The translations under genes and the position numbers were made by a program. Below the pieces are notes generated by a model. That model did not search any database. It was given only the letters and a program-made list of their open reading frames with translations, and was not told the origin of the DNA. From Balneolaceae bacterium (GTDB taxonomy: Bacteria; Bacteroidota; Rhodothermia; Balneolales; Balneolaceae), in contig VEMX01000051.1 in NCBI GenBank assembly GCA_009711805.1, positions 1 through 39,874 on the forward strand: a stretch of 39,874 bases of DNA, given 5' to 3'. This document shows, piece after piece, positions 16,792-22,883 of the stretch (position 1 is its first letter; the number at the start of each line of letters is the position of its first letter).

Positions 16792-17416
16792 TAAAATACG
16801 TTAGTAGTACAAATTCGGTCTTTTGTTCCCACCCAAGGATACCGGTTTTTTAGCTAAAAGGCATGTTTTTTAGTAATTGAGTATGGGTGCGTACTCAAAT
16901 AGTGTGTCCGGGCATCTTCGATATTACCTTAATCATAGAATTCCCCGACGGCTTGGCCTCGGTATGGTCAACGATGACCACACCAGTTGCCATGAATGGG
17001 GAGACTGCCACGGTCTGGTTTGCCAGGCTTACACATCCCTCGCGTGCCGTAGACATCCTCACGGGAGAAGGCAATAATTGAAATCAGAACGAGCTCCCGT
17101 AGGTGTCTGCGGTATTGGTACTTAACCCGGATTATTCACCAAGAAATTTAATCGTACGCAAGGCGAAGTGGAAATGGGAACGGAAGGGTACTGTGGTACC
17201 CTGAGTACCCCAATTTTCACTTGAACGCAGCGTACGGGGAAATTTCGCCGCCTAATCCGTACCTCAAAATTGGGCTATTACATAAAGCAATTCAACGGTA
17301 ATATATTCAAGTGTATAGATCGCCATTTTGCATCCATTCGTGAATAATTCGGGTTAAAAAAGGGATGACCTCCGAATACGAAAATCACCCCAAATCTTTA
17401 AAAAGAGTTATGTTAT
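16792..17416. other. 628-bp intergenic region with decayed REP-like sequence
   Basis: There is no convincing gene. The left part should contain the xseB-dxs promoter. From about 16900 to 17080 there are REP-like fragments (for example around GGGGAGACTGCCACGGTCTG). A long imperfect palindrome fills 17117-17263. The open frames through here are short, overlap each other and give unrecognisable proteins. Confidence 0.6.
17117..17263. repeat. 147-bp imperfect palindrome
   Basis: Both outer ends read GGTAC...GGATTA inward on their own strand. The arms then share CGAAATTT or near matches, CGTACGC, an AAGTG block and a G-run. The centre holds GGGTAC/GTACCC. Folded, it makes one long stem-loop. It overlaps a second inverted pair, CCCAATTTT/AAAATTGGG (17209-17274). 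Size and non-coding nature suggest a MITE-like or REP-type element. Confidence 0.65.
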
Positions 17417-17419
17417 GGG

Positions 17420-18616
17420 CTATTTCACCTTAACCCCATCGATGATAACACCGGTGATATGTGATGTGTATTCAAGAGGATCTCCATCGAACATAGCAAT
17501 ATCGGCATCTTTGCCGGCTTCAAGAGAACCTACCCGGTTGTTGATCCCCAGCAGTTTAGCCGCTTCTATAGTCAGCACCTTTAGTGCATTTTCTTTACCT
17601 AAACCATTGGCGGCTGCAACTCCGGCTTCGAAGAGTATAACACGTGTTTTAGGTACATACCCCTCATAACCACTTTGAAAGGCAACCGGAATACCAGCTT
17701 GATACAGCTTGCCGGCTGTTTCAAAGGAGGCATTTTTGCCATCTCCGTAGGTACGCATCATAGTAGGATGTACAATAACAGGTACTCCGGCTGCTTTAAG
17801 TTCGTCTATAATCAGGTATGCTTCTGCACCTCCATCAACAACCATGGGGAAGTCGAACTCTTGCTGAAGGCGTAGTGCCGTCATGATATCATTGGCTTTA
17901 TGGACGGTGACAAGAGCTTTGATTTTACCATCCAAAAGGTCTGCCAGTGCTTCCATTCCAAGGTTTACGGAATAGTCGTCGCCGTTGGCTCTTTTTTTGG
18001 CGTAACTGCGGGCTTTGATAAGTTGCTGCCGTAACATAGCAACGCCTTTAGAACGTGTGCCCGGTTTCTTAATGGCACCGGAGATCATACTCCCCATGGT
18101 AAAAGCCAGCATGGTTGTGGAGTCGACCAGGGCTTCCTCTACGGTTTCTCCTGTTGTCTTCACAATCATAGTTTGTCCACTGATGAGAGCTCCCGGCCCA
18201 TGACCTGTATGAACGGTTGTGATTCCATGATCACGTAAATGTCCCACCAAAGCTTCCCGTGCGTTGTAAGCATCCATTGCCCGTAGTTCAGGCTGAATGG
18301 CACTGGAGGTTTCAAGCTGATCCTGATCATTATCTTGGTTCAGGTGGCCGGCAAGTCCCACTACCGAATGAGCATCAATAAGCCCCGGGCTAACAACCTT
18401 AGCTTCATGAATGGTATATCCGGAAGGAACAGTGATGTTTGAAGCCGGACCTACCCGCTCTATCTTTCCATTCTTAATTAATACGACTCCATCATTGATG
18501 GGATCTCCTGCCATGGTATAAACCGTTTCACCTTTCACAGCAATTTGCTGCGCCTGAAGAGGCTGCACAAGTAGTATGAAAGCAAAAACGAAAACGAATG
18601 ATTTAATATATCTCAT
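17420..18616 (-). CDS. Secreted amidohydrolase-like protein lacking metal ligands
   Basis: A 398-aa exported protein (signal peptide 1-22, ending LQAQ) with the imidazolonepropionase-like amidohydrolase fold. The edge strands match its upstream partner, including GSLEAGKDADIAMFDGDPLEYTSHI. The metal-binding residues do not: HxH is HSV (H83, V85), the barrel His seen as H270 in the partner is G262, and the HTDD Asp region reads QSGY (314-317). It is therefore probably not a metal-dependent hydrolase. Its start overlaps the partner's stop by ATGA, so the two are made together and may form a mixed complex. Confidence 0.85.
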   Translation of the reverse strand: MRYIKSFVFVFAFILLVQPLQAQQIAVKGETVYTMAGDPINDGVVLIKNGKIERVGPASNITVPSGYTIHEAKVVSPGLIDAHSVVGLAGHLNQDNDQDQLETSSAIQPELRAMDAYNAREALVGHLRDHGITTVHTGHGPGALISGQTMIVKTTGETVEEALVDSTTMLAFTMGSMISGAIKKPGTRSKGVAMLRQQLIKARSYAKKRANGDDYSVNLGMEALADLLDGKIKALVTVHKANDIMTALRLQQEFDFPMVVDGGAEAYLIIDELKAAGVPVIVHPTMMRTYGDGKNASFETAGKLYQAGIPVAFQSGYEGYVPKTRVILFEAGVAAANGLGKENALKVLTIEAAKLLGINNRVGSLEAGKDADIAMFDGDPLEYTSHITGVIIDGVKVK

Positions 18617-19926
18617 TGTGAACCTCCATCTGTATGGTGAGTGTGAACTTCTCCCCGGAATACTTCATAACCCCCGGTAGCAAATTTACGATCTTCTTCA
18701 TTTGCCCGGTTCCACACGTTATGGCCTTCTATCCAGGTTTGTTCAACATGAGTATATACACTGAAAGGGTCACCGGATAGTATGATGAAATCTGCATCTT
18801 TTCCTTTTTCAAGTGTGCCAACCCGGTCATCTATTCTCATCATTTTAGCATTGGCAATGGTTAAGGATTCCAATGCCCCTTTTCGGCTCATACCTTCTCT
18901 TATGGCCAGTGCAGCCGACCGAAGAAACAGGCGTGAATCGGTAATACCATCATCCGTATGTAAACCAACCATTACCCCGGCATCTTCCAGGTACTTGCCA
19001 TTTGCATTTTTGAGATCAACGGCTTCCAGTTTTCCACCAAAAGAATCGAGTGTTATGATGGATGCTGGTACGCCAGCCTCTGCAATTTCATCTGCTACCT
19101 TCCAGGCCTCACTCACATGTTGTAGTACCAAATCGTAGCCAAACTCCTGAGACAGGCGGATGGCGGTGAGTATATCGTCGTGGCGATGGGTATGATTGTG
19201 AACTGTGCGTTTACCTTCCAAAACCTGAACCAGTGCTTCCATACCAATATCCCGGGGAGGCATCTTGCTTTCATCACCACCTGCCGCATCAATTTTAGCC
19301 TGGTATTCCCGGGCTTTCACAAACAGCGAACGAACCAGGGCGGCTGACTTGGCGCGGGTGCCCGGAAAAGGAGGATTCCCAATGGGGTTGGTTCCGTTGG
19401 CCATTTTCATACCCCCGTAAATATTTTCTTCTTCATCAATCACCAGCAGCATATCTTCAATAGTGTTGGCTGGACGGAGCTTGAGGTATACCGTTTGCCC
19501 GCTCATCAGATGCCCGGAACCCGGCATCACATTTACCGAAGTGATTCCTCCTGCCAGAGCTTTGCGGAAAGTGTCGCTTCGCGGATCAATAGTATCCATA
19601 ATACGAACGTCCGGATGCAAAGCCGAGGAACGGTCTCCCCCGTCTCCTTCCCCAATATGGGAATGCGTGTCAACCAGGCCCGGCATAATTACTTTGCCGG
19701 ATACATTGTGCACATTGGCATCGGAAGGGATATTAGTGCTGGCACCACCAACAGTGGTTATTGTTCCATTTTCGACAATTAGTACTCCATTATTTATAGG
19801 CTCGCCGGAGATTGGAATAATCTGAGCTCCCTTAAAGGCTTGTGGGATAGATTGAGTATACCCGTTCAGGCTAAAAAGAAGAGCACAAATCGAAGCGAGC
19901 AAAATACTTCGGATAGGCTTGATCAT
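18613..19926 (-). CDS. Secreted metal-dependent amidohydrolase
   Basis: A 437-aa member of the imidazolonepropionase-like amidohydrolase family, with an N-terminal signal peptide (about 1-25). Visible metal ligands are H88 and H90 (DTHSH), a His cluster at 243-249 (HNHTHRH), H270 (LQHVSEAW) and D325 (HTDDG), so it should bind zinc and hydrolyse C-N or related bonds. The substrate is unknown; secreted relatives of this type are sometimes dipeptidases or act on small amides. It is the first gene of a two-gene unit with a ligand-less paralogue. Confidence 0.88.
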   Translation of the reverse strand: MIKPIRSILLASICALLFSLNGYTQSIPQAFKGAQIIPISGEPINNGVLIVENGTITTVGGASTNIPSDANVHNVSGKVIMPGLVDTHSHIGEGDGGDRSSALHPDVRIMDTIDPRSDTFRKALAGGITSVNVMPGSGHLMSGQTVYLKLRPANTIEDMLLVIDEEENIYGGMKMANGTNPIGNPPFPGTRAKSAALVRSLFVKAREYQAKIDAAGGDESKMPPRDIGMEALVQVLEGKRTVHNHTHRHDDILTAIRLSQEFGYDLVLQHVSEAWKVADEIAEAGVPASIITLDSFGGKLEAVDLKNANGKYLEDAGVMVGLHTDDGITDSRLFLRSAALAIREGMSRKGALESLTIANAKMMRIDDRVGTLEKGKDADFIILSGDPFSVYTHVEQTWIEGHNVWNRANEEDRKFATGGYEVFRGEVHTHHTDGGSQ

Positions 19927-20088: not shown

Positions 20089-20757
20089 ATGAATAAGGCA
20101 TTAAAATTATCTATGCTGATAGCAGCAGTACTGGTTTCTCTGTTATTTATGACCACTCTTAGCATAGATGGCATAGTAAAGTCTGCAATAGAGCAGCAGG
20201 GATCAAAACTGTTGAAAGCGCAAGTAGAGATGGATGATCTCGATATTTCAATATTCGGAGGACGTGGAGAGATTAAAGGTTTTGTGATTCATAATCCGAA
20301 AGGTTTCAGCGATGAAGAGGCAGTTCGCTTTGATCAGATTTATATGGAAGTGAATCTTTGGTCTTTATTTGCGGACCGGGTGGTTGTAGAGGAAATGCTA
20401 ATACAAAAGCCGGAATTCTTTTTTGAGCAACAGGGTACCGGGATAAACCTCAGAAAACTAAATCAGAATATAGGATCTCCCTCGCGGGAAGAATCACAAA
20501 AAGAAGTGATTATAGAATATCTCCGGGTTGAAGAGGGAATTGTTAAATTAAGCACCGAGATTGAAAAAGAGCGTACTACCGAAATAGCAATGGGTTCGCT
20601 GGAATTAGAAGGAATTGGCAAAGAGGACAGCAATACTCTTCAGCAAACGGTGGGACAAGTGATGAGCCCATTACTTGAAAAAGCTGTGATTGAAGCTCTG
20701 AAAGGAGGCATTCTGAAACAGCTGGAAAATAAAGTACGAGATCTGGTTAGCGGATAG
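20089..20757 (+). CDS. AsmA-like envelope protein
   Basis: A 222-aa protein with one N-terminal membrane segment (about 7-24) and a following region (VEMDDLDISIFGGRGEIKGFVIHNPKGF, about 45-75) typical of AsmA/DUF748-type proteins. Those proteins have a repeated beta-groove fold and work in outer-membrane lipid or protein homeostasis. It is much shorter than full AsmA proteins, so it may have a narrower role. The C-terminal half is helical and charged. It is single on the plus strand and converges with the DUF2927-like gene. Confidence 0.65.
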   Translation: MNKALKLSMLIAAVLVSLLFMTTLSIDGIVKSAIEQQGSKLLKAQVEMDDLDISIFGGRGEIKGFVIHNPKGFSDEEAVRFDQIYMEVNLWSLFADRVVVEEMLIQKPEFFFEQQGTGINLRKLNQNIGSPSREESQKEVIIEYLRVEEGIVKLSTEIEKERTTEIAMGSLELEGIGKEDSNTLQQTVGQVMSPLLEKAVIEALKGGILKQLENKVRDLVSG

Positions 20758-20770
20758 TCGTTACCAGCTG

Positions 20771-21529
20771 CTATTGGACAACGTCATCGATAATGCTTTC
20801 AAGAACTGGCTGAACCTGAAACACAGAAAGTCCTGTTTTCATTTGAGGGTGGTACAATAATTGAATTACATCTTTATCCATTTCGGAATATTCGGTGACG
20901 GCACTGACGCTATAGGAGCTATTAAAAATACTATCTTCATATTTGGGAGAATCTTTAGCCATACCCAACGACTGCGTGAGTTCTTCACGTAAAAGGTGAC
21001 GTTGGTTTACTTTCTTAGGCCTGTAAATATCAACATACATGGTAGCTTGTCTTATCTCGTTATTGGGATTCCATGATAACCAAAACATACCGTAATTGGT
21101 TTCTGTGTATCCTATGGCTGGGGAAAAACGGCTTTCAAATTCTTGTCCTGATCCAAAGAAAATACTGAAGTTGGAAGAGTCAGGATCATGGGTAATACTC
21201 AGGGTGGTTTCCCCGTCATCGATAAGATCATTCAAATCAGCTATGATTATATCAAGCTCTTCCATTAAAGTAGAATCCTGTTCTCCTTCTACATATATGA
21301 ATATATCTTTTTGCCATTTTCGGGTGACCTCATCAACATTCCCAAACTCCATTCCTAAGGCAACATCCTTAAAATAAGCTATAGCTTCTTCTTGTTTGGT
21401 TAACGGTTGCTCCTCGGCTGTAACTTGTCCTTCTAAACAGGAAGTAAGAAACAGTAGCAAAAGAACGTAAGGTATTACATTGGTTACGGGAGTTTGGGTG
21501 GCGGATATTTCAGACAGCAATTTATTCAT
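20771..21529 (-). CDS. DUF2927-like lipoprotein
   Basis: A 252-aa protein with a hydrophobic stretch and a cysteine at residue 31 (LFLTSC), suggesting a lipoprotein with a longer than usual N-terminus. The true start could be further in, but no other Met precedes the hydrophobic stretch. Residues about 176-215 (RHLLREELTQSLGM, then YEDSIFNSSY) match the DUF2927 pattern of secreted proteins of unknown function. Its ATG overlaps the end of the amidohydrolase upstream by 8 bp, so they are co-expressed. No HExxH motif is seen. Confidence 0.65.
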   Translation of the reverse strand: MNKLLSEISATQTPVTNVIPYVLLLLFLTSCLEGQVTAEEQPLTKQEEAIAYFKDVALGMEFGNVDEVTRKWQKDIFIYVEGEQDSTLMEELDIIIADLNDLIDDGETTLSITHDPDSSNFSIFFGSGQEFESRFSPAIGYTETNYGMFWLSWNPNNEIRQATMYVDIYRPKKVNQRHLLREELTQSLGMAKDSPKYEDSIFNSSYSVSAVTEYSEMDKDVIQLLYHPQMKTGLSVFQVQPVLESIIDDVVQ

Positions 21530-22883
21530 TATAGTAGGATTTTATTTCGTTCAATTTTTTATTGATTATTTTACGAGAAAACCATCGGCCCTGTACCATA
21601 ACACCTTCATGATTCTTAATATGGGATATATCCTCCAGAGGATTGTGGTTTATCAAAATCAGGTCGGCCCGCTCACCTACTGTAATTGTGCCAAAGTTGT
21701 CCCGGCTTGAAAAATACTCTCCTACCCTTCTGGTTCCACTTTCGATAATTTGATAAGGAGTCATTCCTGCTTCTTCCATAAGTGGTAATTCCCGATGGAT
21801 AGAAAATCCGGGAACACTGAAAAGCTGTGGGGCATCGGTTCCCATAAGGATCTTAACCCCGGCTTTGTTCATTTCCGAAAGAATATGTTGCCGCAAGTCG
21901 GCATGTCCCTGCGCATTGACAGGGTCGTAATAGGCACTATTCTCAAGGTTATCTACATAGTTGATGTAATTGTTCAATACTGCTTCAGGGATGTATTTGA
22001 GTTCCTCATATTCTTGCAGGGTTTCATAATCAGCAGCACCGATAATGGTTTTCCAGAGGGCTTGCGTTGGTACAATCCATACATCATGCTTTTTTGTGAG
22101 CCGTACAATTTCGTCAAGCTTTGTTTGTTGTTCGGGGCCTTCAAATGTTTCCAGGTAGGAAACATAACCATCAATATGATCGATGGTTTTTTGGCCTGAT
22201 TTTATAGCATGTACTATTCCTACATCTTGTGGAACATGTCCTCCAAAAGTGATGCCTGCGGAATGTGCGGTTTCTGCTATAGCGTTGTACTCAGCCAGGG
22301 TAAGTCCGGGATGTATTTTAAGCAGATCCCACCCTTCTTTTTGTTGTTGTATTACCCGTTCTTTGGCTTGATCTGGAGAAGAAACGGTATTTCCGTTAAA
22401 ACTAGGTCCTGCCAGATACAGGTTTGGTCCGATAAGCTCTCCGTTGTTTATTCTTTTTTTCAGTTCTAACTGTCCCGGATATCCTAACATCCCCCGCACG
22501 GTAGTGATACCCGCCGATAGGTACAAAAACAAGGTGCTCTTCACATAGTAGTCATCAAAATAAGCCGGCATATTAGCAGTTCGTTTGCTTGGTGGGATGT
22601 GACCATGCATTTCTGCTAATCCCGGAAGCAGATATTTGTCTGAACCATCTATTACTTGCGTAGCTGAAGAGATTTCTGTTTCGCTTGATGGACTAACTGT
22701 TATAATTTTATCGTCACGTACTATTACTGTATAATTTTTCAGGAGGGCTTCGCTATTCATGGGAATTACATTCACATTGGTGAACGCAAATAAGGAGGGC
22801 TGGCTGGAAGTAGCTGTCGCGGGCAGTAAAAGAGAATCTGCAAGAAATGAACAAGACAGAAGCAGTGGCAGGATGAATTTCAT
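21522..22883 (-). CDS. Secreted amidohydrolase with full metal site
   Basis: A 453-aa exported amidohydrolase (signal peptide about 1-25). The ligand set is complete: H93 and H95 (MHGH), a lysine in DLLKIHPG, His in FGGHVPQ and DHIDGY, and Asp in MGTDAPQ. It belongs to the same broad family as the 17.4-19.9 kb pair but is diverged from them. Family members include imidazolonepropionases and secreted prolidase-like dipeptidases; the substrate cannot be read. It forms a two-gene unit with the DUF2927-like lipoprotein. Confidence 0.88.
   Translation of the reverse strand: MKFILPLLLSCSFLADSLLLPATATSSQPSLFAFTNVNVIPMNSEALLKNYTVIVRDDKIITVSPSSETEISSATQVIDGSDKYLLPGLAEMHGHIPPSKRTANMPAYFDDYYVKSTLFLYLSAGITTVRGMLGYPGQLELKKRINNGELIGPNLYLAGPSFNGNTVSSPDQAKERVIQQQKEGWDLLKIHPGLTLAEYNAIAETAHSAGITFGGHVPQDVGIVHAIKSGQKTIDHIDGYVSYLETFEGPEQQTKLDEIVRLTKKHDVWIVPTQALWKTIIGAADYETLQEYEELKYIPEAVLNNYINYVDNLENSAYYDPVNAQGHADLRQHILSEMNKAGVKILMGTDAPQLFSVPGFSIHRELPLMEEAGMTPYQIIESGTRRVGEYFSSRDNFGTITVGERADLILINHNPLEDISHIKNHEGVMVQGRWFSRKIINKKLNEIKSYYNE

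Follow-up and report, generated by a model that had tools for sequence, protein, structure and literature searches.

The gene pair analyzed in this study lies on the minus strand of a contig from a Balneolaceae bacterium (VEMX01000051.1, assembly GCA_009711805.1); the window, as the term is used below, is this whole stretch of 39,874 nt. The features of the locus are as follows.

18613..19926, minus strand: gene A, an amidohydrolase of 437 amino acids with a signal-like N-terminus (open reading frame, Pfam, 3ooq match, AF2 model).
17420..18616, minus strand: gene B, a paralogue lacking the metal site, 398 amino acids with a signal-like N-terminal helix (open reading frame, 3ooq match, AF2 model).
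18613..18616, minus strand: ATGA overlap, the start of B lying within the stop of A (sequence).
17362..17391, minus strand: terminator-like hairpin of 13 pairs with a T tail, just 3' of B (consensus scan).

The four bases common to the two minus-strand reading frames bear out the ATGA overlap reported in the preliminary description, and this arrangement is consistent with translational coupling of A and B. The hairpin is a weak candidate for the end of a two-gene operon A-B, since the terminator scan of the region yielded 3 sites versus 3.9 expected in shuffled sequences; the counts from the promoter and terminator consensus scans of the region were all near chance. In the 64 other loci containing both genes, A and B either overlap or are separated by gaps of up to 193 nt; some of the starts were taken as the first ATG of the frame, and the few large apparent overlaps (e.g., -130) are artefacts. 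A crude rule recognizes a hydrophobic N-terminal stretch in 58 of 65 A and 58 of 67 B proteins, and thus both proteins are probably exported.

A and B had been described as sharing a fold, and they indeed do: BLASTP aligns them over 393 positions with 35% identity (E 4e-63), and for both the best sequence match in the PDB is 3ooq, an amidohydrolase of Thermotoga maritima MSB8 (E 1e-64 for A and 1.1e-50 for B). Both exceed the cut-off of 25 bits for the Pfam family PF01979 (Amidohydro_1), with 64.1 bits for A and 43 bits for B, and the only Pfam families matched by the two proteins at E up to 0.001 are PF01979 and PF07969. The AF2 models, built from 55 A and 57 B sequences, have pLDDT values of 88.4 and 89.3, respectively (pTM 0.88 for B). 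The B model is aligned with 3ooq by Foldseek at TM 0.88/0.91 and rmsd 2.0, and the A model at TM 0.80/0.90, while other amidohydrolases reach a TM of about 0.6 or lower with these models; the fold search for B gave Z 49.7 for 3ooq versus 26.7 for the next entry. A and B hence belong to the 3ooq-type subfamily, the likeness in full-length sequence and fold being far above that to other amidohydrolases. The 3ooq crystal contains one kind of chain only, unlike the A+B pair, so that a partner may not be needed by enzymes of this kind. No paper on 3OOQ/TM0814 was found in the open-licence literature. As an arginine/lysine carboxypeptidase and a prolidase are among the nearest characterized folds, at ~16-20% identity, the substrate of A is, by analogy, perhaps a small peptide or amide.

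The orthologues comprise 27 database loci and 40 stretches from 40 relatives, plus the window. With one hybrid gene (L116, described below) set apart, these loci contain 66 B and 64 A genes, that is, 67 B and 65 A sequences with the window; the hybrid was kept on the A side in alignment column counts and left out of the dN/dS and ligand tallies. The 40 stretches, the hybrid locus included, are the places taken for alignment, besides the window, from a sample of 58 relative genomes, of which five (G008, G029, G049, G052, and G055) were not aligned, B or A being broken or cut by contig ends.

The residues H88, H90, K174, H245, H270, and D325 of A form a set of the binuclear amidohydrolase type, and we take them to be the HxH, Lys, His, His, and Asp metal ligands of this class; K174, located on a strand in the AF2 model, is presumably the expected carboxylated lysine. 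The sequence of 3ooq has counterparts of all six, and all six are present in each of the 65 A sequences. In contrast, B orthologues retain either none (28 of 67) or one (39 of 67) of the first five ligands, and an Asp in the strand-8 loop is absent from all 67; no orthologue with an intact site, which the preliminary description had named as evidence to the contrary, was found among them. The sole ligand retained in the B protein of the window is H88, a column occupied by H in 35 and by R in 32 of the 67 B sequences. The substitutions listed in the preliminary description (V for H90, G for H270, Q for H323) are real, and its G/Y for D325/D326 holds in a gapless reading, the Asp being gone in any alignment (MAFFT and BLASTP place E318 of B opposite D325 of A). 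The list was incomplete, since B also has A in place of K174 and T in place of H245. H323 of A is probably not a metal ligand, as 3ooq has M at this position in the sequence alignment. Judging by these residues, two metals are expected to be bound by A, which would hydrolyse its substrate, and B is not expected to bind them in the manner of A.

A is located directly upstream of B in 64 of the 66 B loci, and in the remaining two (L052 and L054) B is at a contig end. The 27 database loci, mostly metagenome-assembled, are assigned to Balneolota, Acidobacteriota, Planctomycetota, and Verrucomicrobiota. Among 296 genomes of the phylum, which are related so that the counts are not independent events, A was found in 69 and B in 68, all 68 being common to both (E up to 1e-80 for either gene; the 68 include the genome with the hybrid). 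The sole A-only genome, G028, has A running into a contig end. For 66 of the 67 B places, again with the hybrid apart, the A match shares contig and strand with B and is no more than 577 nt away from the B match; the exception is G251, where part of B adjoins A at the end of one contig and the remainder of B is on another. In the sample of 58 relatives, 46 genomes have B or pieces of it, ten have neither gene, and only A was found in G026 and G028, where it runs into a contig end in both cases. No reading frame fusing A and B was seen among the matches listed in the 58- and 296-genome searches. In the single-contig genome G033, one hybrid A/B gene (L116:4052-5275) replaces the pair, both intact genes being missing; its diagnostic residues are of the A type up to residue 246 and of the B type from residue 271. 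The hybrid, together with the ten relatives lacking either gene, indicates that the pair is dispensable.

The gene neighborhood of the 66 loci gave no functional hint. Besides A and B, no neighbor family occurs in more than 12 loci, and five of the 25 largest families (5 to 11 loci each) span both the mainly-Balneolota group and the other group; the A/B family itself was recovered in 63 loci and missed in L035, L049, and L097, where it was probably masked by longer overlapping frames. In the window, a third amidohydrolase of another subfamily (21522-22883, minus strand) is situated upstream of A on the same strand, with look-alikes upstream of the pair in 8 of the 66 loci by visual inspection. 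A divergent reading frame with a hydrophobic N-terminus (20089-20757, plus strand) has a similar-looking family beside the pair in 5 of the 66 loci, also judged by eye. One database locus labelled Chitinophagaceae (L034, LKNA01000055.1) has A/B scores against the window almost equal to those of the Rhodohalobacter locus L033, and its label or binning may be wrong.

The loss of the metal ligands could mean that B is a decaying duplicate that survives through its linkage to A, and one relative offers a B in such a state: in G052 (L212:113-1008), B is broken over two frames on a 4028-base contig with no A adjoining, and no good A match was found elsewhere in this genome. This is the exception, as no internal stops are present in the B-type places among the matches listed for the relatives sample, in which frameshifts had been named as a sign against the pseudoenzyme. 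In the 30 of 126 closer pairs for which dS is below 1.5 in both genes, dN/dS has a median of 0.121 in A and 0.123 in B (sequences recur among these pairs, which are therefore not independent). The 2080 pairs drawn from the 65 loci where A and B are both present have a mean identity of 0.599 in A and 0.560 in B; the A and B identities are correlated (r 0.88), as shared ancestry alone would make them. Other rows of a 57-sequence alignment are 51-80% identical to the B protein of the window, and in 67 B sequences 63 positions are near-invariant, with at most one row differing. Moreover, the related dead genes described below persist even where they are unlinked from an active paralogue. We consider decay of B to be very improbable and reject it on dN/dS and conservation. 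The ligand loss in all B proteins and the dN/dS constraint speak for that part of the preliminary description in which B was a pseudoenzyme and not a product of plain decay. The pair is retained in at least four phyla with equal selection on both genes, and this suggests a functional role for B alongside A rather than a broken gene.

The conserved positions also bear on what B does. Of the 63 near-invariant residues, 25 differ from the A consensus, and these include H139, G262, H283, P284, R288, Q314, G316, E318, Y320, P322, and K323, which the B model places after its barrel strands (as the model lacks Met1, its numbering runs one lower). All 67 sequences have R288, Q314, and E318. As these B-specific invariants are predicted near the barrel mouth, the mouth seems to have been rebuilt rather than abandoned.

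Other sets of active and dead paralogues are found in the same subfamily. The window's own genome contains three consecutive amidohydrolase paralogues on contig 15 (about 41156-45239; L117:5157-9240), the middle one with the ligands and the upstream and downstream ones without them; similar triplets are present in loci L123, L124, and L126-L128. In a long-chain set, found in other genomes, a protein of ~1000 amino acids, whose C-terminal part is an intact amidohydrolase and whose N-terminal part is presumably a beta-propeller, is followed by a metal-less paralogue of ~455 amino acids. Sixty loci were taken around the downstream dead members of these sets, corresponding to 52 different genes, as eight genes occur in both lists. 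None of the dead members in the 60 loci retains more than one of the first five ligands, although an Asp is present in the strand-8 stretch of several. The active paralogue adjoins the dead one in 53 of the 60 loci (45 of the 52 genes; in L188 the active frame is cut). In the other seven loci no active paralogue was found nearby, nor over 17 kb around, and in each of these seven genomes an active copy is present elsewhere. The lone metal-less members with the active partner elsewhere are those of L142, L146-L148, and L156-L158 (families f29 and f33).

In a search of 148 genomes, dead and active members of the related sets were found in exactly the same 85, at E below 1e-50 for the dead and up to 1e-60 for the active members; weaker relatives may lie beyond these cuts, and the cut for the dead members was chosen after the search to exclude B, dropping five genomes with B-only matches. 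The Fisher test of this co-occurrence (p 2e-43) treats genomes as independent and serves as a guide only. The two genes are unlinked in ten of the 85 genomes, being on different contigs in eight and about a megabase or more apart in two. Seven of the ten have no active gene in the 17 kb surrounding the dead member; in G079, G157, and G177, no active gene was found in the stretches taken around the main dead copy, and G177 has a second, cut dead copy at a contig end. The ten genomes belong to three families, and one or a few separations with long co-retention thereafter may therefore account for all of them.

These sets help to weigh two further explanations of B. It could be a metal-independent enzyme or a ligand-binding protein that acts on the same or the next compound, sharing a pathway with A and forming no complex with it. 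LigI is a metal-independent member of the amidohydrolase superfamily, several of the 25 near-invariant residues that set B off from A are polar, and H139, H283, R288, Q314, E318, Y320, and K323 are placed by the model near the C-terminal ends of the barrel strands; co-occurrence and linkage, too, fit proteins of one pathway that never touch. However, the downstream dead members of the related sets lack counterparts of H283, R288, and Q314 in the segments compared, and are equally tied to an active paralogue, so that a shared need for partnership is a simpler explanation than several new activities; we regard an activity of B's own as unlikely. The second explanation, a chaperone role of B in the expression or export of A with no lasting place in a complex, agrees with the overlap of the genes, the apparent export of both proteins, and the near 1:1 co-occurrence of A and B. 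It is less probable still, since the triplets hold two different dead paralogues per active gene, and the separation of the related pair in ten genomes is unexpected for a role on the nascent chain.

The reading that we find the most convincing, and consider fairly likely, is that A is a probably exported binuclear hydrolase of the 3ooq type and B its dedicated pseudoenzyme partner in a hetero-oligomer, the contact between them and the role of B being what we infer. It draws on the absence of the metal site from all full-length B orthologues examined, equal purifying selection on both genes, the B-specific invariants, the near-perfect co-occurrence, and the related sets. The strict pairing, seen in the related sets even between unlinked genes, points to B as a structural and gating subunit. 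A and B, encoded in overlap and presumably co-translated, would be exported and then assembled into a hetero-oligomer, probably in the periplasm. In this complex A would perform the hydrolysis and B would stand in for a second catalytic protomer, giving stability and/or loops that gate or complete the substrate site of A.

Dead amidohydrolase relatives are known from other systems. The dihydropyrimidinase-related CRMP/DPYSL proteins have, like B, the amidohydrolase fold without metal ligands; they are eukaryotic cytoskeletal regulators and, unlike B, are not known to be encoded beside an active paralogue. A review describes the Mn/Fe hydroxylase AibH1H2 of Rhodococcus as a heterodimer in which AibH2 is catalytic and AibH1, mainly structural, maintains the complex and touches the metal loop of AibH2 (PMC12141560). 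An active and a structural subunit, both related to the amidohydrolase superfamily, are likewise proposed for A and B. Unlike in the A/B pair, AibH1 still binds metal, the enzyme is a hydroxylase needing electron carriers, and AibH2 is assigned to 'PF4909' (PMC12141560); A and B, at E up to 0.001, match PF01979 and PF07969 and not PF04909. The active/structural arrangement thus exists among the proteins of this superfamily. In Pseudomonas aeruginosa, a pseudo-dihydroorotase is described as an inactive homologue needed for the activity of its partner, the complex being far more heat-stable than its parts (PMC7053772). Like the proposed B, it is a dead amidohydrolase relative serving as a required subunit; its partner is aspartate transcarbamoylase and not a paralogous amidohydrolase (PMC7053772). 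Searches of the open-licence literature yielded no description of active/dead pairs of the present type. Pseudoenzyme partners are known as a kind, and no account of a lineage-wide rule for this subfamily was found in that literature.

The origin of the dead lineages was considered in quick trees of 18 A/B loci and the window, two long-chain loci, and six triplets. In a tree of 55 rows without outgroups, from which the upstream triplet member was left out, all 27 dead rows (B and both downstream types) are on one side of a branch with SH-aLRT 98; omitting the ligand columns lowers this value to 92. The dead and active sides mirror each other, with the long-chain and triplet members as sisters and the A or B clade apart on each side, as expected if the pair was duplicated as a pair. 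When long-branched outgroups and the upstream triplet member are added, B groups with the active rows (support 89) and the remaining dead rows are placed outside, a result that carries a warning that long branches meet. As these additions change the placement of B, the tree is not decisive between one loss and several.

Taken more widely, and here we are tentative, with the odds in our judgment slightly against, the 3ooq-type amidohydrolases of four phyla (Bacteroidota with Balneolota included, Acidobacteriota, Planctomycetota, and Verrucomicrobiota) may include an unrecognized class of obligate hetero-oligomers of catalytic and pseudo-catalytic subunits, occurring as pairs, long-chain pairs, and triplets with two dead members, in which the remodelled mouth of the dead barrel would complete or gate the active site of the partner. 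As part of this wider proposal, an ancient duplication would have given the dead lineage, which would then have been carried through later duplications together with its active partner. To our knowledge, pseudoenzyme partners have been known singly, and a rule for a whole bacterial subfamily would be unusual. Since B passes the Pfam cut-off for amidohydrolases, automatic annotation is likely to mislabel B-like proteins as hydrolases despite the missing metal site. The partnership is open to test in the ten genomes where the genes co-occur without linkage, and studies of A alone could fail for want of B.
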